This document shows positions 10,667-20,084 of a DNA stretch of 64,000 nt, in pieces. How positions within the stretch are numbered: the first letter of the stretch is position 1; every line of letters begins with the position of its first letter. The stretch covers positions 1 through 64,000 of the forward strand of contig MKVT01000001.1 in the NCBI GenBank assembly GCA_001898935.1, read 5' to 3'. The stretch is from Paludibacter sp. 47-17. GTDB lineage: Bacteria; Bacteroidota; Bacteroidia; Bacteroidales; Paludibacteraceae. The position numbers and the translations under genes are program-made. Below the pieces are notes generated by a model. It was not told where the DNA came from. It saw only the letters and a list, made by a program, of their open reading frames with translations, and did not search any database.

Positions 10667-11995
10667 TTATTTGTCAATTACTAATCGGAGGGCGTCGAGG
10701 GTTTGGGCGAGCTGCCGTTCGGTATGGGCGGCCGATATAAAACTGGCTTCAAAGGCCGACGGCGACAGATAGATTCCCCGCCCGAGCATCGCCCTGAAAA
10801 ACCGGGCAAAGCGTTGGGTGTCGGAGGCGGTTGCGTCGGCAAAACCGGTGACGGGAGTAGCCGAAAAGAAAAGGGTGAAAAGCGAACCCACCTGATTCAG
10901 CTGAATGTCTTTTCCCCGGATGAATTCCCGTATCGTATCGCCAAATTGTTGGCTTTTTTGTTCCAGGCGGTTATAAAACCCTTCTTCCTGAAGCAGTTGA
11001 AGCGTTCGGATGCCTGCGGCCATCGCTACGGGATTTCCCGATAGTGTTCCGGCCTGGTATACCTTGCCCAAGGGTGCCAGCCGGTCCATGATTTCGGCTT
11101 TTCCTCCGAAGGCAGCAGCCGGAAACCCTCCGCCGATAATTTTACCCAGGGTGGTAAGGTCGGGACGAATGCCGAAATGTTCCTGTGCACCTCCGCGTCC
11201 GAGCCGGAAACCGGTGATTACTTCGTCGAATATAAGTACACTTCCGTACTGGTTGCAGATATCGCGTAATCCTTGCAGGAAACCGGGTGCGGGGGGTATC
11301 ACGCCCATGTTGGCCGGCAGAGGTTCGGTGATAATGGCTGCAATTTGATTGCCCAGCTCCCGGAAAACAAGCTTTACGGCTTCCAGGTCGTTGAAGGGTA
11401 TGCTGAGCGTATGGCGCACAAAGGCTTCGGGAACGCCGGCAGAGGAGGCGCCGGAACGTCCGACGGTTGTTGCGGATGATGCAGCATCGTCCGGCGTTCC
11501 TCCGGCACGTATCCCCACGGCTCCCGACCCGGCAGCTACCAGCAGATGATCGGCATGGCCGTGGTAGCAGCCGTCAAATTTGAGGATCAGGTCGCGGCCG
11601 GTGTGGGCACGGGCCAGACGGATGGCGCTCATCACAGCTTCGGTACCCGAGCTTACGAACCGTACTTTCCGGATCGAGGGTACCGATTCGACCACCAACC
11701 GCGCCAGCAGGGTTTCGGCGGTGGTAGGTATCCCGTAACTCGAACCTCGTTTTACGGCATCCACCGACGCTCTTACAATGGCCGGATGTGCATGCCCGTG
11801 CAGGTGCACTCCCCACGAAAGGCAAAAATCGATGTACCGGCGGTTGTCGATATCCGTGAGCACCGCACCTTTCGCTTGTTGGATAAACAGCGGACTGGCC
11901 CCTACGCTACGCAGGGCCCGCACCGGGCTGTTCACACCTCCCGGAATGAACTCCGACGCTTCGTTATAGGCTTTTTCGGATAAAGTCTTTTGCAT
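10667..11995 (-). CDS. hemL: Glutamate-1-semialdehyde 2,1-aminomutase
   Basis: The protein has 442 residues. It converts glutamate-1-semialdehyde to 5-aminolevulinate with pyridoxal phosphate. The PLP lysine lies in TTLGKIIGGGFP (near residue 265), and YHGHADHLL and IFDEVITGFR are conserved. Between GSG and SSAGVPEAF (residues about 161-185) it carries an insertion of roughly 18 residues, rich in Ala, Gly, Ser and Thr, relative to typical HemL. That position corresponds to the mobile gating loop over the active site. The start overlaps the end of hemB by 32 bases, suggesting translational coupling. Confidence 0.93.
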   Translation of the reverse strand: MQKTLSEKAYNEASEFIPGGVNSPVRALRSVGASPLFIQQAKGAVLTDIDNRRYIDFCLSWGVHLHGHAHPAIVRASVDAVKRGSSYGIPTTAETLLARLVVESVPSIRKVRFVSSGTEAVMSAIRLARAHTGRDLILKFDGCYHGHADHLLVAAGSGAVGIRAGGTPDDAASSATTVGRSGASSAGVPEAFVRHTLSIPFNDLEAVKLVFRELGNQIAAIITEPLPANMGVIPPAPGFLQGLRDICNQYGSVLIFDEVITGFRLGRGGAQEHFGIRPDLTTLGKIIGGGFPAAAFGGKAEIMDRLAPLGKVYQAGTLSGNPVAMAAGIRTLQLLQEEGFYNRLEQKSQQFGDTIREFIRGKDIQLNQVGSLFTLFFSATPVTGFADATASDTQRFARFFRAMLGRGIYLSPSAFEASFISAAHTERQLAQTLDALRLVIDK

Positions 11996-12929
11996 AATAC
12001 GTTATAATGTAATGGGCTCCTGCCCGTTTGATAGCAGTGAACGATTCGGTGAAGGCCCGTCGCTCGTCCACGATGCCGCAGGCGGCGGCCTGCTTGAGCA
12101 TGGCATATTCGCCCGAAACCTGGTAGGCTGCCAGCGGTGTGGCCGGAAACGCCACCGAAGCCCGCTGGATGATATCGAGATAGGCCTGGGCAGGTTTCAC
12201 CATTACCCAATCGGCTCCTTCGTCGATATCGGCTGCAATTTCTTCCACACCCTGATGGAGCGTGCGGTAGTCCATCTGATAACTCTGCCGGTCGCCGAAC
12301 GAGGGAGCCGAGCCGGCGGCATCGCGGAACGGACCGTAAAACGAAGAAGCGTATTTGGCCGAATAGGCCAGGATGCGTGTCGAAAGGCCCTCCGCATCGA
12401 GTACCGCCCGTATGGCTTCTACCTGACCGTCCATCATGGCCGAAGGGGCTACAAAATCGGCTCCGGCGCGGGCGTGTGCCAGCGCGATACGGGCGAGTAC
12501 GGGCAGGGTACTGTCGTTGTCGACGGTCTCGCCCAGCAACAATCCGCAATGGCCGTGCGAAGTGTATTCGCACAAACATACATCGGTGAATACGGTGAGC
12601 GGCGGAAATTCGCGCTTGAGGTAGCGCACTGCGCGGCACACCAGCGAGTTCGGGTCGTAACCGGCGGTGGCTTCGGGATTTTTAAGCTCTTCGCCGATCA
12701 CGCCAAACAACAATACTTTTCCGATACCGAGTTGCATCAACCCGGCTACTTCATCGCGCAGCCTGTCGATCGAAAATCGAAACACGCCGGGCAGGGTTGC
12801 GATAAGCTGTTTCTGATCGCTTCCTTCGACGATAAACAGCGGGTAGATGAAGTCGTCGGCCTGCAATCGTACATCGGCGTAGCGTTCGCGGGTGGCAACA
12901 TCGGTTCGGTAGGATCGGAATCGTTTCAT
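11964..12929 (-). CDS. hemB: Porphobilinogen synthase (ALA dehydratase)
   Basis: The protein has 321 residues. It condenses two 5-aminolevulinate molecules to porphobilinogen. The zinc cysteines are present in TDVCLCEYTSHGHCG (residues 115-129). The two active-site lysines are in YSAKYASSFYGPF (near 197) and VMVKPAQAYLD (near 250). It overlaps the preceding fusion gene by four bases (ATGA) and the following hemL by 32 bases, so the three are probably translated in a coupled fashion. Confidence 0.95.
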   Translation of the reverse strand: MKRFRSYRTDVATRERYADVRLQADDFIYPLFIVEGSDQKQLIATLPGVFRFSIDRLRDEVAGLMQLGIGKVLLFGVIGEELKNPEATAGYDPNSLVCRAVRYLKREFPPLTVFTDVCLCEYTSHGHCGLLLGETVDNDSTLPVLARIALAHARAGADFVAPSAMMDGQVEAIRAVLDAEGLSTRILAYSAKYASSFYGPFRDAAGSAPSFGDRQSYQMDYRTLHQGVEEIAADIDEGADWVMVKPAQAYLDIIQRASVAFPATPLAAYQVSGEYAMLKQAAACGIVDERRAFTESFTAIKRAGAHYIITYYAKDFIRKSL

Positions 12930-15034
12930 ATACTATCGTGTTGATGGTGAAGTGGGTGGCGGGTTGATTCCGCCATGGCGGCAGCGTCTGTGTTCGTATG
13001 ACCGGACAGCTGTAACTTCACCTGGTAATTCTTCGTGTTATCTTTCTCGTTTTCAAATCGTTTTTCGGTCTCCCGGCCTCGTAACAGGTAGTTTTTTTCG
13101 GCCGGAAATTGTCCGTACACTTTCTTGAAATTAGTTACGCAGGAGGGCGATGTGAGTACAATCGTGTCGATACCGGTCAGGTCGATAGCTTCCGTTGGTT
13201 CGGGTAAGTTGTTGGTGTACAGTGATATTTCGGTGATCTTCCAGCCTGCTTTGCGCAATCCTTCGGGTAATGCCGGCAGCCCGATGGCCGAACGGGGAAT
13301 AACTGCCCGGGCGGCGGGTCGATGCCGAAGGAGCGTTAAGATTCCTTCCGACGATTCGTCGGTGGCCTGCAGATCGGGTTTCAGTCCGTAACGCAGCAGG
13401 GTACGGCTGGTAATCCGGCCCACCGAAACAATGCGTAAACCCGCCAGGGAGCGCAGGTCTGTTTTTTCTTCTTTCAACAGGGCCCGGACGAAAAAATCGA
13501 CACTGTTGCGACTGGTGAAAATAAGCCAGTCGTGATGGCGGAGCAACTCGCCCAGGGGGGGCGTGTCCAGTGCTTTCAACTCGATAAGGGGTTGATGAAT
13601 CACTTTTCCCAACCGGTCGTAATCGCCGGGATGGGTGCCGGTTACCAACAGGGTGGGGCGGCTTTTGGCCGGAAGGACGGCGCCGAGGCCGGCTACTTTT
13701 CCAACGACCGCGATAAGCGGGGTGGGGTAGTTGTTGTCTTCCGATGCCAACTGCCCGAGCGTGGTGAAAAAGCGTTGTTCGTTGTTGCGCGACACGTGGG
13801 CAGCCAGCAATACCGGTGTTTCGGGCGTGCGGCCCTGTGCGAGGGCATTGGTGGCGATGGGGCGCAGGTTGGCGGCTCCCATGTAAATCACTACGGTGTC
13901 GGTGCCGGGAAGTTGCAGCTGGGGCGAGTGGCCGGTGACAAAGGCAACCGATGCAGCTAAACCGCGGTGAGTGAGGGGAATGCCGGTGAGCGAGGCTACG
14001 GCCAGCGCGGTAGAGATACCGGGGATTATTTCGTAGGGGATGTAGCATTGCGCCAGGGCCAGCGCCTCTTCGCCCCCGTGTGCGAACACCATCGGATCAC
14101 CCCCTTTCAGCCGTACCACTCGGCGTCCTGCCCGTGCCGCATCGATCATCAGCTGGTGAATATCTTCCTGCGAATGACTATGCCGGTCCTTACGCTTGCC
14201 GACATATACTTTTTCGGCTGTGTAGCGATGGAGTTCCCGGGCGTCGAGCAGGTCGTCGTAAAAAATAATATCGGCCAGCCCGAGGGCGCGGGTCGCACGC
14301 CGGGTGAGCAGGTCGGGGTTGCCGGGGCCGAAGCCGGTGATGCTTACGTGGCCGTAGCGGGAGCGGGCATCGGCCGTAGCGAAATTAACTTCCGCCCTGT
14401 CGCGCATTTCTTTCCGGGAAAAAAGCGGGTTTCCCTTTCGTCCCACCACGGCCAGACTTCCCTGCAGCGGATGCGTGCGAAACGGCAATACCTCGGCCAC
14501 GCGATGCATCAATCCCAGTCGTTTCAGGGCGCAGGTAGCCACGATGAGGGCGTCGTAATCGCCGGCATCGATTTGTGCGATGCGTTCTTCGATGGTGCCG
14601 CGTATGCCGGCGACAACCAATTCGGGACGGATGGCCAGCAATCCGGCTTTCCGGGTGGGGGAGCTGGTGGCGATGCGTGCCCCGGCGGGTAATTCAGCGA
14701 GGGTTTTGTTGTCGCGACTTACCAGCGAGTCGCTCGTGTCGAAGGCTTCGGTGAGGGCGATCAGCTCCAGTCCGTCGGGCAGGGGGAAGGGCATGTCCTT
14801 GGCCGAATGAATAGCGATGTCGGCTTCGCCCAGCAGTACGAGTTCATCCTGCTCGCGGGTAAACAGGTCGGCCGGAGGATTGTCGAGCAGGGAAATGTCC
14901 TTGCGGAGGTCGCCCCAGGCGGGTCGGCCGATGATTTCGTATGCAACGCCGGGAAAAGCGTTGAAGAATTCGCGCACCTGGAGCAAGGCGAGCGTACTGG
15001 TACGACTGGCTACGCGTATTAATTCACTGGCCAT
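12926..15034 (-). CDS. Fused HemC (truncated)-CobA-HemD
   Basis: The protein has 702 residues and three domains. Residues 1-205 match hydroxymethylbilane synthase domains 1 and 2: RVASRTSTLAL, HSAKDMP with the catalytic Asp near 80, SSPTRKA, RGTIEER and LKRLGL. Domain 3, which carries the GGC cysteine that anchors the dipyrromethane cofactor, is absent; the chain passes at once into the next domain. Residues 227-455 are uroporphyrinogen-III C-methyltransferase (GFGPGNPDLLT; VVRLKGGDPMVF; IIPGIST). Residues 458-650 are uroporphyrinogen-III synthase (FTSRNSVDFF; TSPSCVTNF), ending in a polar tail of about 45 residues unlike a normal HemD C-terminus. The product set, uroporphyrinogen III then precorrin-2, serves siroheme. 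It overlaps hemA by 16 bases and hemB by 4. Whether the shortened HemC works alone is open. Confidence 0.88.
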   Translation of the reverse strand: MASELIRVASRTSTLALLQVREFFNAFPGVAYEIIGRPAWGDLRKDISLLDNPPADLFTREQDELVLLGEADIAIHSAKDMPFPLPDGLELIALTEAFDTSDSLVSRDNKTLAELPAGARIATSSPTRKAGLLAIRPELVVAGIRGTIEERIAQIDAGDYDALIVATCALKRLGLMHRVAEVLPFRTHPLQGSLAVVGRKGNPLFSRKEMRDRAEVNFATADARSRYGHVSITGFGPGNPDLLTRRATRALGLADIIFYDDLLDARELHRYTAEKVYVGKRKDRHSHSQEDIHQLMIDAARAGRRVVRLKGGDPMVFAHGGEEALALAQCYIPYEIIPGISTALAVASLTGIPLTHRGLAASVAFVTGHSPQLQLPGTDTVVIYMGAANLRPIATNALAQGRTPETPVLLAAHVSRNNEQRFFTTLGQLASEDNNYPTPLIAVVGKVAGLGAVLPAKSRPTLLVTGTHPGDYDRLGKVIHQPLIELKALDTPPLGELLRHHDWLIFTSRNSVDFFVRALLKEEKTDLRSLAGLRIVSVGRITSRTLLRYGLKPDLQATDESSEGILTLLRHRPAARAVIPRSAIGLPALPEGLRKAGWKITEISLYTNNLPEPTEAIDLTGIDTIVLTSPSCVTNFKKVYGQFPAEKNYLLRGRETEKRFENEKDNTKNYQVKLQLSGHTNTDAAAMAESTRHPLHHQHDSI

Positions 15035-15993
15035 ACTTTCGATCGGTTAAAAAATGTACGGACCTCTTCTTCGATAATCTTTTCGGCTTTTTGCAAAGCA
15101 TCGCCCCGCTGATGGAGGTTTTGCTGAATGCGGGCTTCAATATCTTCCAGATTATACAGCCGGATGTGCCGGTATTCGCCGATGCGTGCGTCGATATCCC
15201 GGGGGAAAGCGAGGTCGAAAATCTGCATGGGTTGGTTGACCGGGAATTTCTCGGGCCGTACCACTGTGTAAGGCGCCGATGTGGCTGAAATCAATACATC
15301 GGTATGCGATAATACCTCGTGCAATTGATCGAAACCCACAATCCGGCACCGGTATTTCTCGGCATAGGGCAAGGCCTTGTGGTAACTTCGGTTGGCCACG
15401 AAAAGGGCTTCGGCTCCTTTTTGCTGAAGGAATCGGATGGTATCCTCGGTGAGTTTGTTCACGCCGATCAGGGTGATGCGGGCATCGGTAAGCGGGATGC
15501 CGCTGGCTACGATCATTTCCACGGTGGCCTGGCCGTGCGACACGGCGCCACGGCTGATTCCCGATCGGTTGCGCACGAGTTTGCCCACCCGTAGCGCCTG
15601 CTGAAAGAGGCGGTGAAGGGCGGGCGACAACGAAAACTGTTCGCGGGCTGCTTCGTAAGCGGCCTTTACCTGTCCCTGGATGGCCGATTCGCCGGGAAGA
15701 CCCGATTCGAGTCCCGATACCACCCGGAATAGATGACGCACGGTGGTTTCGGCAATTTCACCTTCGCCGGCATACACTTCGATGCGGTTGCAGGTCTGCA
15801 GCAGCACGTGAGGGCGGCTGGCCGGAAGTTCGTTTCCCTCGGCATCCGGTGTGTTGTTCCGATCGCGCCGATCGACCGTGAGCAGTTCTCCTGTTCCCCG
15901 GATACTGCCGGGAGTGCCTTTCATCGTCCTGAAAAAATCCTCCCGCTCGGCGATCCGGCTGTTGTTACGGCTGATTGAGTTGAAGTATACCAT
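15019..15993 (-). CDS. hemA: Glutamyl-tRNA reductase, short form
   Basis: The protein has 324 residues, against about 420 in typical HemA. It reduces glutamyl-tRNA to glutamate-1-semialdehyde with NADPH, the first committed step. The catalytic cysteine is in TCNRIEVY (near residue 68). The family signature reads RVVSGLESGLPGESAIQGQVK, and the NADPH-domain region is ITLIGVNKLTEDTIRFL. The catalytic domain is about 30 residues shorter than in E. coli after the TCNR motif. The protein also stops at the linker helix, so the C-terminal dimerisation domain is missing. The ATG at 15993 overlaps the upstream gene by 29 bases. Confidence 0.88.
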   Translation of the reverse strand: MVYFNSISRNNSRIAEREDFFRTMKGTPGSIRGTGELLTVDRRDRNNTPDAEGNELPASRPHVLLQTCNRIEVYAGEGEIAETTVRHLFRVVSGLESGLPGESAIQGQVKAAYEAAREQFSLSPALHRLFQQALRVGKLVRNRSGISRGAVSHGQATVEMIVASGIPLTDARITLIGVNKLTEDTIRFLQQKGAEALFVANRSYHKALPYAEKYRCRIVGFDQLHEVLSHTDVLISATSAPYTVVRPEKFPVNQPMQIFDLAFPRDIDARIGEYRHIRLYNLEDIEARIQQNLHQRGDALQKAEKIIEEEVRTFFNRSKVWPVN

Positions 15994-16444
15994 CGTGTGA
16001 TAATTGAGCGATCCGGTCGCGAACGGCTATCGACTGATACACATTTTGTGCGTTCGACGATACGGCAATCGTGAGATGATCGTGTTTGAAAATAGCGGGT
16101 GATACAAAATCGCAAAGTATGGGCGCATCGCAAACGCTGGTCAGGATGCCCCGTTCTCCGGCATCGGCTTTGATTTGCTCGTTGAGAGCGTGATCGCCGG
16201 TACATACATACACCAGGAAAAAGCCTTCCAGATCGGTGGGTTCGTACGTTTTTTGTATGCGGTGGAAAGGTAGTTCGCACATTTCGGGGGTGAAATCGGG
16301 CGAAAGTACCGTCACGTTTTCGGTTACGAACCGGGCCAGGATACCGGCTTTGTGAGTGGCCACTTTGCCGCCGCCAATCAGTAATATCTTTTTCCCGGTT
16401 ACGTTGATCGATACGGGCAGGAACCGGAGGTCTTCTCGTTGCAT
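15965..16444 (-). CDS. Precorrin-2 dehydrogenase (siroheme synthase N-domain)
   Basis: The protein has 159 residues, about the size of Bacillus YlnF and shorter than Met8p or the CysG N-terminal region. It oxidises precorrin-2 to sirohydrochlorin with NAD, and related proteins also insert iron. The Rossmann start VTGKKILLIGGGKVATHKAG (residues 15-34) is clear, and LCDFVSPAI with LTIAVSSN is the usual second signature. The motif normally reading VVDD is VCDA here, keeping one acidic residue. No separate ferrochelatase is visible in the window, so this protein may also act as the chelatase. It lies 6 bases after cysI. Confidence 0.88.
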   Translation of the reverse strand: MQREDLRFLPVSINVTGKKILLIGGGKVATHKAGILARFVTENVTVLSPDFTPEMCELPFHRIQKTYEPTDLEGFFLVYVCTGDHALNEQIKADAGERGILTSVCDAPILCDFVSPAIFKHDHLTIAVSSNAQNVYQSIAVRDRIAQLSHDGILQLNQP

Positions 16445-16450
16445 AGGATA

Positions 16451-18145
16451 TTAATTTTCGTGAAACAGTTTCCCGGCTTCCACCGCTTTTACATAGCCTT
16501 TGCGGACCACGAAATCGCCGAAATGTTCGCCCGGCTGCCTGTCGGCCGAAAAATCGGCGAGCAAAGGATCGATCGCTGCGAGGATTTCCTCTTCTCCCAG
16601 CATTTCTTTGTAGAGTTTGTTCAACCGGTTGCCGCTGAAGCTGGCGCCCAGGTACAGGTTATACTTGCCCGGCGCACGCCCCACCAAGGCTATTTCTCCC
16701 AGGAAAGGCCGGCCGCAACCGTTCGGACATCCGGTCATACGGATGGAAATGGGCTCGTTGCTCAGTCCGTACTTTTTCAGCAGCTCTTCTATTTTATCTA
16801 CCAAGACAGGCAGGTATCGTTCGGCCTCGGCAAAGGAGAGTCCGCAATAAGGCAAGGCCGCACAGGCAATGGAATGCAGACGCAGCTGCGAGTGAATGTT
16901 ACCGTCCGGGATATTATATTTCGTAAAAACAGATTCAATTTTAGGTTTGTCGGAAGGTGTAATTTGTGCAATGGTGAGATTTTGATTTCCGGTAAGGATA
17001 AAGCTTCCGGTATGGAATCCGGCAATTTCGCGAACGGCGGTTTTGGCTGCGATTCCGTGCTTGTCGGTTAGTTTACCACCTTCCACAAACAGGGTGAAAT
17101 GCCAGTTTCCGTTCGTATCCTGATGCCATCCATAGTCGTCGCCCTGGGTGGTGAAATCGAAGGGGCGGGCCGGTTCGAGCACCAGGCCGTGCGTACGCTT
17201 CAACTCACTGCGGAAATAGTCGAGTCCGTAGTTGTCAATCGTATATTTCAAGCGAGCTTGTTTCCGATCCTGCCGGTTGCCGTGATCGCGCTGGAACACG
17301 ACCACCGCTTCGGCCGCCTCTACTACTTTTTCTGCCGGAATATAACCGGCGATATCGGCCACCCGCGGATAGGTAGCATTGTTGCCGAAGCTATAGCCCA
17401 TTCCTCCGCCGACAGCGAGGTTGTAGCCCTTCAGAACACCGTGCTCCACTATGGCGACGAAGCCCAGGTCGTTGGATAACACATCGGTGTCGTTGCGCGG
17501 AGGAATGGCCATAGCAATTTTGAATTTCCGGGGCAAATAGGTTTTTCCGTACAGCGGTTCTACTTCAGGCTCGCCGCCGGCGACGAGTTCTTTATCGAGC
17601 CATATTTCGTGATAAGCGCCGGTTTGGGGCGACAGGTGTGCCGAGATCTGCCGGGCATGTTCGGCTACTTCGGCATGCACGGCCGATTCCCAGGGATTGG
17701 CCGACGACATCACGTTGCGGTTCACATCGCCACAGGCAGCCAGGGTGTCGAGCAGGGTGTCGTTGATTTCCCTGATGGTTGTTTTAAGATTCCGCTTAAG
17801 TACTGCGTGAAACTGAAAGGCCTGGCGGGTAGTCAGTTTCAGTTCGCCGTCGGCATAGGTGTCGGCGAGTTTGTCGATGGCTTTCCACTGAGCAGCGGTG
17901 GTTATGCCGCCCGGCACCCGGATGCGGATCAGGTAGCTGTACAGCGGTTCGAGTTTCTGCCGGCGTCGTTCCTCGTCGAGATCGCGGTTTTGCTGCTGGT
18001 ACACCCCGTGAAACTTGATAAGCAGCTGATCGTCGGGGGCGATGGCGCCGGTAATAGGATTGTCGAGGCTTTCGGCAATGGTGTTACGCAGGTAGTTGCT
18101 TTTTATTTTGAGGGCTTCAAAAGCCGGAATATCTTGTTGGCTCAT
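16451..18145 (-). CDS. cysI: Sulfite reductase hemoprotein subunit
   Basis: The protein has 564 residues, close to the 570 of E. coli CysI. It reduces sulfite to sulfide by six electrons on a siroheme-[4Fe-4S] centre in the cytoplasm. The cluster cysteines are present: CAALPYC (near residues 428-434) and TGCPNGCGRP (near 473-482). The siroheme-contacting arginines lie in TTRQAFQFH (near 103) and in NRNVMSSANP. Its cofactor is made by the genes that follow it, and its electron donor is the CysJ-like protein encoded 19 bases upstream. Confidence 0.95.
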   Translation of the reverse strand: MSQQDIPAFEALKIKSNYLRNTIAESLDNPITGAIAPDDQLLIKFHGVYQQQNRDLDEERRRQKLEPLYSYLIRIRVPGGITTAAQWKAIDKLADTYADGELKLTTRQAFQFHAVLKRNLKTTIREINDTLLDTLAACGDVNRNVMSSANPWESAVHAEVAEHARQISAHLSPQTGAYHEIWLDKELVAGGEPEVEPLYGKTYLPRKFKIAMAIPPRNDTDVLSNDLGFVAIVEHGVLKGYNLAVGGGMGYSFGNNATYPRVADIAGYIPAEKVVEAAEAVVVFQRDHGNRQDRKQARLKYTIDNYGLDYFRSELKRTHGLVLEPARPFDFTTQGDDYGWHQDTNGNWHFTLFVEGGKLTDKHGIAAKTAVREIAGFHTGSFILTGNQNLTIAQITPSDKPKIESVFTKYNIPDGNIHSQLRLHSIACAALPYCGLSFAEAERYLPVLVDKIEELLKKYGLSNEPISIRMTGCPNGCGRPFLGEIALVGRAPGKYNLYLGASFSGNRLNKLYKEMLGEEEILAAIDPLLADFSADRQPGEHFGDFVVRKGYVKAVEAGKLFHEN

Positions 18146-18164: not shown

Positions 18165-20084
18165 TTAATATACATCGAGTTGAAGTCGGCGTTCGCGCTG
18201 CATCAGGTCCAGTTCTTCCTGTGCCTGTCCGGCCGAAAGTCCGCCTTCTTGCTGAAGAATGGTGCTGAGCGCCTGTTGTACATCGGCAGCCATCTTGCGC
18301 ATGTCGCCGCATATATATACCTGTGCGCCCATGGCTATCCAGTCGTACAGCTCTTTGGCGTTTTCGAGCATTCTGTGTTGCACGTAAACCGGTTGTGCCC
18401 CATCGCGCGAAAAAGCCACATCCATCCGGGTAAGAGCGCCCGATTTCAGGTAGTTTTGCCATTCGGTCTGGTACAGGAATTCGGTTTCGAAATGCCGGTT
18501 GCCGAAGATGAGCCAGCTTTTCCCGGCCCCGGGGGTGAGTTCGCGTTCTTGTACAAAGGCGCGGTAGGGAGCTATCCCGGTTCCGGCTCCAATCATGATG
18601 ATGGGCGTGGATGGGTCGTCGGGCAGCCGGAAATGAGGATTCGATTCGATGAATACCGGCACCGTTTCGTCGTCGGTCGTTACATCGGATAAAAATCCGG
18701 TGCAGGTGCCGCGTTTGTTGCGGCCGTTTTTCTCGTAACCCACCAGAGCCACGGTAAGGTGCACTTCGCCCGGGAATGCATTCGGACTCGATGCGATGGA
18801 ATAATAACGTGGCTGAAGCGGTTTGAGCAAGCCGGTGAGTTGTGCGGCAGTGAGCTTTACCGGGAAGTCGGTCAGTAAATCCACTATATCTCTTCCGTAC
18901 AGGTATTCCTGTAAAGCCGAGGGGTTTTCGGTAAGCTTTGCCAATCCGGTTTTCGTGTCCGAACGTGTCGCGACTGCTCCATCGGGTGAAGACAACGAAA
19001 CCGGTTCTTCATCCGGAATCAACGCGATTAGTTTTCCGATCTGGTCGGGTGTCAATTTCCCGATTTCAAGATGGCGTTGCAACGCTTCACGCAGCTCCGA
19101 CTGAACCCCATTCACCTCCACTTTTTCGCCGGCCTGCAAGCCGGTAACCGCCAGTACTTCGTCGGTCAGTTGCTCCGAGTTCACCGGGATAATCCCCGCC
19201 GAATCGCCGGGCAGATAAGTCAATCCTTCGGTTTGAAGTTCGATGTGCAGGGTCGTGCGGTCGGAGCCCCGTCCGTGGAGGTTGATTTTTTCGAATACCT
19301 GTGCCTGCAAGGGATTTTTCCGGTTGTAAGAAGCCGGGTTGGCAGGGCCTCTACCCAGGGCGTTGCTCTTCAGCACCGATCCTGCAGCAGTACCCTTCAG
19401 TGCTTTAGCCAGCTTAAAGCCAGCTTGCCGGACCGGAGCAGCTGCCGGCTCACCTTTCAACTGTCCGAAAAACTCCTTCAGCCAGCTTTCATCCTCCGGT
19501 TTAATATCGACATCGCTCAACTGTACCGGCCGTAATCGCCGGGCTCCCAGTTCGGCCAACCGGCTGTCGAACTCTTTCCCGGTCTTGCAGAAATGAAAGT
19601 ACGACGAATCGCCCAGGGCAAATACGGCATATTCCAACCGGCTCAATCCGGGAGCCCGTTTGCCGTGGAGGAAATCGTACACCGTTTTCGCCTGAAAAGG
19701 AGGTTCGCCGTCGCCATGGGTCGACACAATTACCAGCAAGCACTCTTCCTGTTCCAGCGATTTTACCGGATAATCTTCCATGTTTTTAAGCGTTGCTTCC
19801 ACCCCCTGTTCTACAGCCATCCGCAGTGCAATCTTTGCCAGGTTGGCTCCATTGCCCGTACGCGATCCGTACAGAATTGTCAGTTTTTTTGCCGGGGTCG
19901 ACTGCAAAGTCCCATTAGAGTCCGGGTGCTCCTCCGGTAAGGAGGTGCGATCGCCCGGCGCGCGAACACTCAGTGCCGCCAGGTATCCCGCCACCCAGGC
20001 CAGCTGACGTTCGTCGAGCGGCGCCAGCAGTTGTTGAAATACATTGAACTCCTCTTCGCTGAAAGGATTGTTTGTTACGTTCAT
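18165..20084 (-). CDS. cysJ: Sulfite reductase flavoprotein subunit
   Basis: The protein has 639 residues. It passes electrons from NADPH through FAD and FMN to CysI. The N-terminal extension (residues 1-60) resembles that of CysJ. A flavodoxin domain follows (LYGSRTGNGANLA near 70-82; STHGDGEPP near 118-126), then an FAD domain (PRYYSIASSP near 428-437; GTCTGFLSD) and an NADPH domain (MIGAGTGIAPYRAF near 500-513, C-terminal LQLDVY). It is somewhat longer than E. coli CysJ (599), mainly from linkers. It is the second gene of the operon, 59 bases after the DUF2061 gene. Confidence 0.93.
   Translation of the reverse strand: MNVTNNPFSEEEFNVFQQLLAPLDERQLAWVAGYLAALSVRAPGDRTSLPEEHPDSNGTLQSTPAKKLTILYGSRTGNGANLAKIALRMAVEQGVEATLKNMEDYPVKSLEQEECLLVIVSTHGDGEPPFQAKTVYDFLHGKRAPGLSRLEYAVFALGDSSYFHFCKTGKEFDSRLAELGARRLRPVQLSDVDIKPEDESWLKEFFGQLKGEPAAAPVRQAGFKLAKALKGTAAGSVLKSNALGRGPANPASYNRKNPLQAQVFEKINLHGRGSDRTTLHIELQTEGLTYLPGDSAGIIPVNSEQLTDEVLAVTGLQAGEKVEVNGVQSELREALQRHLEIGKLTPDQIGKLIALIPDEEPVSLSSPDGAVATRSDTKTGLAKLTENPSALQEYLYGRDIVDLLTDFPVKLTAAQLTGLLKPLQPRYYSIASSPNAFPGEVHLTVALVGYEKNGRNKRGTCTGFLSDVTTDDETVPVFIESNPHFRLPDDPSTPIIMIGAGTGIAPYRAFVQERELTPGAGKSWLIFGNRHFETEFLYQTEWQNYLKSGALTRMDVAFSRDGAQPVYVQHRMLENAKELYDWIAMGAQVYICGDMRKMAADVQQALSTILQQEGGLSAGQAQEELDLMQRERRLQLDVY

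Follow-up and report, generated by a model that had tools for sequence, protein, structure and literature searches.

A putative hydroxymethylbilane synthase without domain 3, fused to siroheme synthesis enzymes in Bacteroidales

The first 64,000 nucleotides of contig MKVT01000001.1 (GenBank assembly GCA_001898935.1) of Paludibacter sp. 47-17, hereinafter the window, include a gene for a fusion protein that consists of a short HemC (hydroxymethylbilane synthase, HMBS, also known as porphobilinogen deaminase, PBGD; EC 2.5.1.61), uroporphyrinogen-III C-methyltransferase (SUMT) and uroporphyrinogen-III synthase (HemD). The HemC part consists of domains 1 and 2. Work on the enzyme (PMC3945110, PMC7907807, PMC3949521, PMC7242693, PMC9714363, PMC10577081) describes a dipyrromethane primer attached to a single conserved cysteine, and three papers assign this cysteine to domain 3. 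We propose, with a probability of roughly 0.6, that the fusion is an active hydroxymethylbilane (HMB) synthase in which the primer anchor has moved from domain 3 to Cys168; we infer both the activity and the anchor from sequence comparisons. Under this proposal, the gene product would be a working HMBS made up solely of domains 1 and 2 and joined in one chain with the next two enzymes of siroheme synthesis; the primer, dipyrromethane or a shorter one, would be held by a thioether to Cys168 within the cleft instead of by the domain-3 cysteine; the HemD part would close HMB, and the SUMT part would methylate the product to precorrin-2 for siroheme.

Domain 3 and the conserved residues of short HemCs

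A Pfam search detected no match to Porphobil_deamC (domain 3) in the 702-residue fusion; E. coli HemC, searched against the same library, shows both HemC domains. Across the genome (4,182,621 bases in 39 contigs, 99.98% complete), PF03900 (domain 3) gave zero matches even at E ≤ 10 (11 of 14 control genomes match), and the only PF01379 match is the fusion itself. The preliminary description of this DNA, made from the sequence alone, had reported a HemC-CobA-HemD fusion devoid of domain 3 and suggested looking for a complete hemC elsewhere in the genome. The Pfam and genome-wide PF03900 searches bear out the former, and a second hemC or a free domain 3, sought with both profiles, was not found in this genome. 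The junction between HemC domain 2 and SUMT is equally direct in many other assemblies, including those of Dysgonomonas capnocytophagoides DSM 22835 and Bacteroides neonati MS4, and 85 further distinct sequences, mostly from Bacteroidales, likewise lack domain 3. Such repeated absence across assemblies cannot be put down to chance or to faulty assembly. The preliminary description had named a sequencing or assembly error costing about 100 codons as one that could undo its claim; an artefact of this kind, or one of annotation, can for practical purposes be dismissed.

Among 31 genome entries with the short form (including G669, in which the gene is cut by a contig end, and G030 and G825, which are probably one genome), PF03900 above the cut-off is missing from 30; it is present in 5 of 5 long-HemC controls. 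The sole short-form entry with such a match, G830, holds a second, 316-residue HemC, and four others give sub-cut-off PF03900 matches (E 0.36-0.81). The co-occurrence of a short and an ordinary HemC in G830 (loci L138 and L143) was observed in a metagenome-assembled genome (MAG). These counts bear on the possibility, raised in the preliminary description, that another protein supplies the domain, and on the wider one that the fused SUMT or HemD domains, or some stand-in, take its place. An unrelated protein in this role could escape sequence searches, but the near-uniform lack of PF03900 and the existence of a free 217-residue HemC without an adjacent SUMT, so that the fusion is not needed, render this option improbable.

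The catalytic pair Lys83-Asp84 (E. coli numbering, used throughout for alignment positions) is present in 94 of 94 short and 43 of 43 long aligned sequences (rows). R11, Q19, S81, K83, D84, R132, R155, R176 and Q198 are invariant in the short rows that reach them, and R149 is kept in 93 of 94. Five of the six positions of the arginine-lined cleft (R11, R131, R132, R149, R155, R176) are thus kept; R131 is replaced: none of the 86 unique short rows has Arg at this position, and the Paludibacter protein has Thr127. An equivalent of Cys242, the usual site of the thioether to dipyrromethane, is found in 0 of 94 short rows. The preliminary description took domains 1 and 2 to be intact, including the catalytic Asp; this stands for the catalytic pair (Lys79-Asp80 in the fusion) but not for Arg131, nor for several other positions that are consistently unlike those of long HemCs.

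A cysteine at position 172 (Cys168 of the fusion, the sole cysteine of its HemC domain) is found in all 93 short rows extending to the position and in 0 of 43 long rows. Among unique rows the counts are 86/86 versus 0/44, with the next commonest cysteine column filled in 15 of 86, and in the alignment of the fusions the residue is present in 77 of 77. Position 195 is His in 84 of 86 unique short rows. Named genomes were scanned with patterns that cover positions 82 and 195 and not 172, and the best 80 of the 208 relatives detected were taken as loci; because a scan pattern covered the HPLQG loop, these loci are partly selected for His at 195. Positions that are at least 90% constant within each group yet differ between the groups are 43, 60, 67, 82, 154, 172, 173 and 195. 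The same association emerged from a survey of the order by PF01379, which is not motif-selected: HemC was detected in 69 of 393 genomes, 66 complete and three cut by contig ends. With domain 3 judged by its GGC motif rather than by PF03900, 56 of the 66 complete HemCs possess it (Arg131 in 56/56, Cys172 in 0/56), and the 10 that lack GGC show the opposite pattern (Cys172 in 10/10, His195 in 10/10, Arg131 in 0/10).

Relationship to known families, distribution and signs of function

Short HemCs resemble the HMBS/PBGD family (E. coli 1pda, human, B. megaterium, Arabidopsis) in domains 1 and 2, the Lys-Asp pair, most of the arginine cleft, the fold and the place in the pathway, and differ from it in the absence of domain 3, Cys242 and Arg131 and in the presence of Cys172, Ala82 and, mostly, His195. 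With TIGR00212 (the hemC equivalog, cut-off 164 bits), the Paludibacter domain scores 154.3 bits, below the cut-off, six of the seven scanned short HemCs pass at 170-185 bits, and two long HemCs reach 325-374 bits. The NCBIfam model NF002202 (PRK01066, 'hydroxymethylbilane synthase'), with its 241 positions, has no room for domain 3 and assigns 169-206 bits to the seven short HemCs (169 to the Paludibacter domain, 206.2 at best) versus 127-141 to the two long ones; 0 of 7 short HemCs reach 251 bits, the cut-off of the model, and TIGR00212 gives the higher score for 2 of 7. We take NF002202 to be a chlamydial model; short chlamydial HemCs exist. Among the open-licence papers listed on porphobilinogen deaminase and Chlamydia or Chlamydiae (in one listing 20 of 167), no title or abstract start dealt with a short HemC, and among all open-licence papers listed none dealt with an HMBS lacking domain 3 or with a moved anchor. 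By sequence family, HemCs without domain 3 would be named hydroxymethylbilane synthase, as the members of NF002202 already are. The short HemC most likely works like an HMB synthase, yet fails two defining features of the family, domain 3 and its cysteine. The second and third parts of the fusion are like SUMT (CobA / CysG C-terminal, TIGR01469) and HemD (PF02602), and are unlike the usual forms in being fused behind a short HemC and in that two heme-operon lineages have SUMT reduced to an apparent remnant or lack it altogether.

The full fusion was predicted with a mean predicted local distance difference test (pLDDT) value of 89.7; the ten-residue means are 92-98 over residues 11-200, 64-65 at the HemC-SUMT junction and below 50 over the last 26 residues. 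A Foldseek search with this model retrieved SUMT and CysG structures first, with E. coli HMBS at ranks 48-50 (root-mean-square deviation, rmsd, 2.4-3.0). For the free 217-residue HemC (genome G751), the AlphaFold pLDDT is 96, the 32 best structure matches are all HMBS, and comparison with Arabidopsis PBGD yields a template modelling (TM) score of 0.91 (by query length) and an rmsd of 1.7. Domains 1 and 2 are predicted to fold alone; the HMBS chains among the structure matches listed are all of ordinary length. Compared with three relatives of the same genus, the Paludibacter fusion carries an extra C-terminal tail of ~40 residues (residues ~663-702; 12926-13048, minus strand), largely of low predicted confidence, and a 9-residue insertion at the end of the HemC part (residues ~202-210).

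Among 60 genomes, that of Paludibacter sp. 47-17 included in this and the following samples, HemC is found in 17, as 13 ordinary proteins (open frames of 302-325 residues) and 4 fusions, which come from one genus and include the protein under study. At E ≤ 1e-45, a short-HemC profile finds matches in 12 of the 393 genomes sampled from the order, among them L058, an ordinary long HemC, and L057, cut by a contig end. In a sample of 395 genomes from the phylum, the best other match scores 142.1 bits versus 409 for the Paludibacter protein itself, and domain 3, by Cys242, is present in 29 of the 29 best other matches with loci. The best 80 of the 208 named relatives include Dysgonomonas capnocytophagoides DSM 22835, Bacteroides neonati MS4 and Parabacteroides sp. 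Marseille-P3160; some named loci probably belong to the same genomes as our G-numbered entries (identical tree rows). Many of the bacteria that seem to make their heme-type pigments with the short HemC come from guts and sediments. A tree built from domains 1 and 2 has a single branch with 100/100 support that separates 93 short rows from 44 long rows (Bacteroidota and E. coli only), although the program warns that L026, a long row on a long branch, meets the short group; the short HemCs thus make up a single clade, distinct from the compared long HemCs. Four of the fusions among the short rows (L068, L097, L098 and L123) come from contigs with the labels Treponema, Chitinispirillum, Babeliaceae and Elusimicrobia, which may reflect inter-phylum transfer or mis-binning; among the five genomes grouped with the Elusimicrobia MAG, the match occurs in that MAG alone.

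The genomic context of the short HemC is that of tetrapyrrole synthesis and sulfate assimilation genes: in the 80 named loci, many of which are cut by contig ends, the neighbors (tblastn, E ≤ 1e-10) are HemB (68 loci), HemA (45), SirC (43), HemL (39), CysD (33), CysN (27), CysH (20), Sir (15) and CysJ (8). In two small genomes (1.0 and 1.2 Mb, each 99% complete), the fusion is retained and is followed by matches to HemB, CysD, CysN, CysH and SirC. The ratio of nonsynonymous to synonymous substitution rates (dN/dS) in the HemC part has a median of 0.15 and a maximum of 0.26 (31 non-independent pairs with dS below 2); by this measure, the short HemC is under purifying selection.

In 11 of the 80 named loci, from Paludibacteraceae or Bacteroidales MAGs (L076, L079, L081, L087, L103, L107, L108, L112, L113, L116 and L119), the protein is only 504-507 residues long, and the methyltransferase between HemC and HemD appears remnant-like by eye. 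In L076, the only locus of this group scanned with Pfam, HemC and HemD were matched and TP_methylase was not. L076 and L119, the two such loci whose neighbors were scanned, have HemE upstream and a radical SAM protein downstream. In G751, SUMT is gone entirely, and the free HemC has a four-base overlap with a free HemD; the same stretch (L150) also holds HemE, an amine-oxidase-type protein, HemA, HemB and HemL. The free HemC (L053) nests within the fused group in the tree, so that the split looks secondary. Between hemA and the free hemC (L150:3330-6805) are a gene of the PD-(D/E)XK transposase family, one for a repeat protein and an opposite-strand open reading frame (ORF). These two lineages seem to be rewired, such that uroporphyrinogen III should go to heme in operons of the L076, L119 and G751 type. 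Since SUMT has been lost in two heme-operon lineages, it cannot replace domain 3 there, and the free HemC of G751 makes replacement of domain 3 by a fusion partner unlikely.

Taken together, the conserved operons, purifying selection, retention in small genomes and placement in heme operons suggest that HemC without domain 3 works, and on this comparative evidence we regard its activity as highly likely. A dead or repurposed HemC domain and a blocked pathway, the latter left open by the preliminary description, would be consistent with the loss of the textbook cofactor site. However, the catalytic residues are kept, and the domain is under selection, occurs in both heme and siroheme operons, persists in the 1.0-1.2 Mb genomes and is the only HemC in the Paludibacter genome; residue conservation and dN/dS make degeneration unlikely, and the option as a whole appears very improbable.

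The candidate primer anchor and alternative mechanisms

Among the possibilities listed in the preliminary description, the results favor a cofactor that is held differently, now with a specific candidate, Cys168, that had not been named. In the available text of a simulation study of the E. coli enzyme (PMC3945110), A172, the residue at the position of Cys168, touches the growing chain when it has four, five or six rings, and A170 does so when it has two, three or four. In the human enzyme, according to the accessible part of PMC7907807, the first cofactor ring is bound by K98, D99, S146, S147, R149, R150 and R173, and the second by A189 and R195. By the numbering offset, human R149, A189 and R195 would correspond to E. 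coli R131, A170 and R176, and human K98, D99, S146, S147, R150 and R173 map to E. coli K83, D84, S128, S129, R132 and R155. Thus, the short form has lost one first-ring residue (R131), kept A170 and R176, and gained a cysteine close to them in sequence. This pattern of residues would fit a primer anchor that has shifted towards the inside, with a primer that may be shorter, and if the enzyme is active, attachment of the primer to Cys168 is fairly probable.

Several observations weigh against this assignment. For the dipyrromethane stage, the contacts given in the available text of PMC3945110 do not include A172, so the geometry of Cys168 may be unfavorable for the usual primer. The first-ring residues, apart from the equivalent of human R149, are kept (six of seven), so the first-ring site has not been dismantled. 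Given that the short rows form one clade, the cysteine swap might be a single event, and an invariant cysteine may serve another purpose. Divergent short forms without Cys172 could have been missed because the best 80 of 208 relatives were used. Finally, NF002202 matches the short HemCs well, and if its members lack Cys172, a HemC without domain 3 would be workable without this cysteine.

One alternative would be an active HMB synthase that holds dipyrromethane non-covalently in the arginine-lined cleft, with Cys168 involved in packing, redox control or product release: most cofactor-binding residues are kept, and Cys168 begins a helix right after a strand in the predicted structure, where a structural role is possible. 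Yet the domain has no conserved cysteine other than Cys168, which occurs in just those HemCs that are devoid of the domain-3 cysteine, a non-covalent primer would, by reasoning, leave with the product, and the human enzyme is reported, in the available part of PMC10577081, to be intolerant of changes to Cys261; we consider this mechanism unlikely. Still less likely appears primer-free covalent catalysis, in which the tetrapyrrole would grow directly on Cys168 and be released whole, with no dipyrromethane kept. This scheme could account for the loss of Arg131 next to the retention of the second-ring residues, the proximity of Cys168 to A170 and R176 in sequence, and the listing of position 172 solely at the four- to six-ring stages in what is available of PMC3945110, but it is at odds with the conservation of the first-ring residues reported in the accessible part of PMC7907807, six of seven.

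The gene cluster of Paludibacter sp. 47-17 and implications

The fusion gene lies within a cluster of genes on the same strand (Table 1), and farther along from it we read cysD, cysN and cysH from the sequence, without a family search. The predicted end product of the window cluster is siroheme, for sulfite reductase.

Table 1. Features of the fusion gene and its neighbors, in window coordinates
Feature	Coordinates	Strand	Basis
Fusion gene: short HemC (domains 1-2), SUMT, HemD	12926..15034	-	ORF, 702 aa; Pfam and TIGR01469
HemC domains 1-2 (Porphobil_deam, PF01379), residues 6-202, no domain 3 after	14429..15019	-	Pfam, E 9.1e-47, 159.7 bits, cut-off 22.1
SUMT domain (TP_methylase), residues 230-430	13745..14347	-	Pfam; TIGR01469, 219.7 bits, cut-off 185
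HemD domain (HEM4, PF02602), residues 476-661	13052..13609	-	116.7 bits, cut-off 27.5
Codon of Cys168 (E. coli position A172), putative primer anchor	14531..14533	-	alignment
Codons of Lys79-Asp80 (E. coli catalytic pair K83-D84)	14795..14800	-	alignment
Codon of Thr127, at the E. coli Arg131 position	14654..14656	-	alignment
Codon of His188, HPLQG loop (E. coli A195 by alignment)	14471..14473	-	alignment
HemB, porphobilinogen synthase, substrate supplier	11964..12929	-	Pfam
HemL, class-III aminotransferase (glutamate-1-semialdehyde aminomutase)	10667..11995	-	Pfam; name from context
HemA, glutamyl-tRNA reductase; C-terminal dimerisation domain unmatched	15019..15993	-	Pfam
SirC-like precorrin-2 dehydrogenase (NAD_binding_7)	15965..16444	-	Pfam
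Sulfite reductase hemoprotein (NIR_SIR), predicted siroheme user	16451..18145	-	Pfam
Sulfite reductase flavoprotein (CysJ-like)	18165..20084	-	Pfam

The SirC-like protein is just 159 residues long, with NAD_binding_7 as its sole match. PF00745, the C-terminal dimerisation domain of HemA, is below the cut-off or absent in 16 of 16 short-HemC genomes, counted regardless of whether they carry a HemA, and above the cut-off in 5 of 5 long-HemC genomes; the HemA entries with an apparent loss of this domain are that of the window and L150:2304-3200. The whole pathway, the C-terminal domain of HemA included, may have been trimmed.

On the same comparative grounds, and at the same rough probability of 0.6, we propose that the short HemCs are a separate family, found mainly in Bacteroidales, in which domain 3 is dispensable and the chain would grow from a primer on the cleft cysteine Cys168, perhaps shorter than dipyrromethane, to serve both siroheme and heme synthesis. 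If so, a natural two-domain enzyme would raise the questions of the role of domain 3, of how chain length is counted without it and of the mobility of the primer anchor, and would explain the synthesis of siroheme or heme in genomes whose only HemC is the short form.

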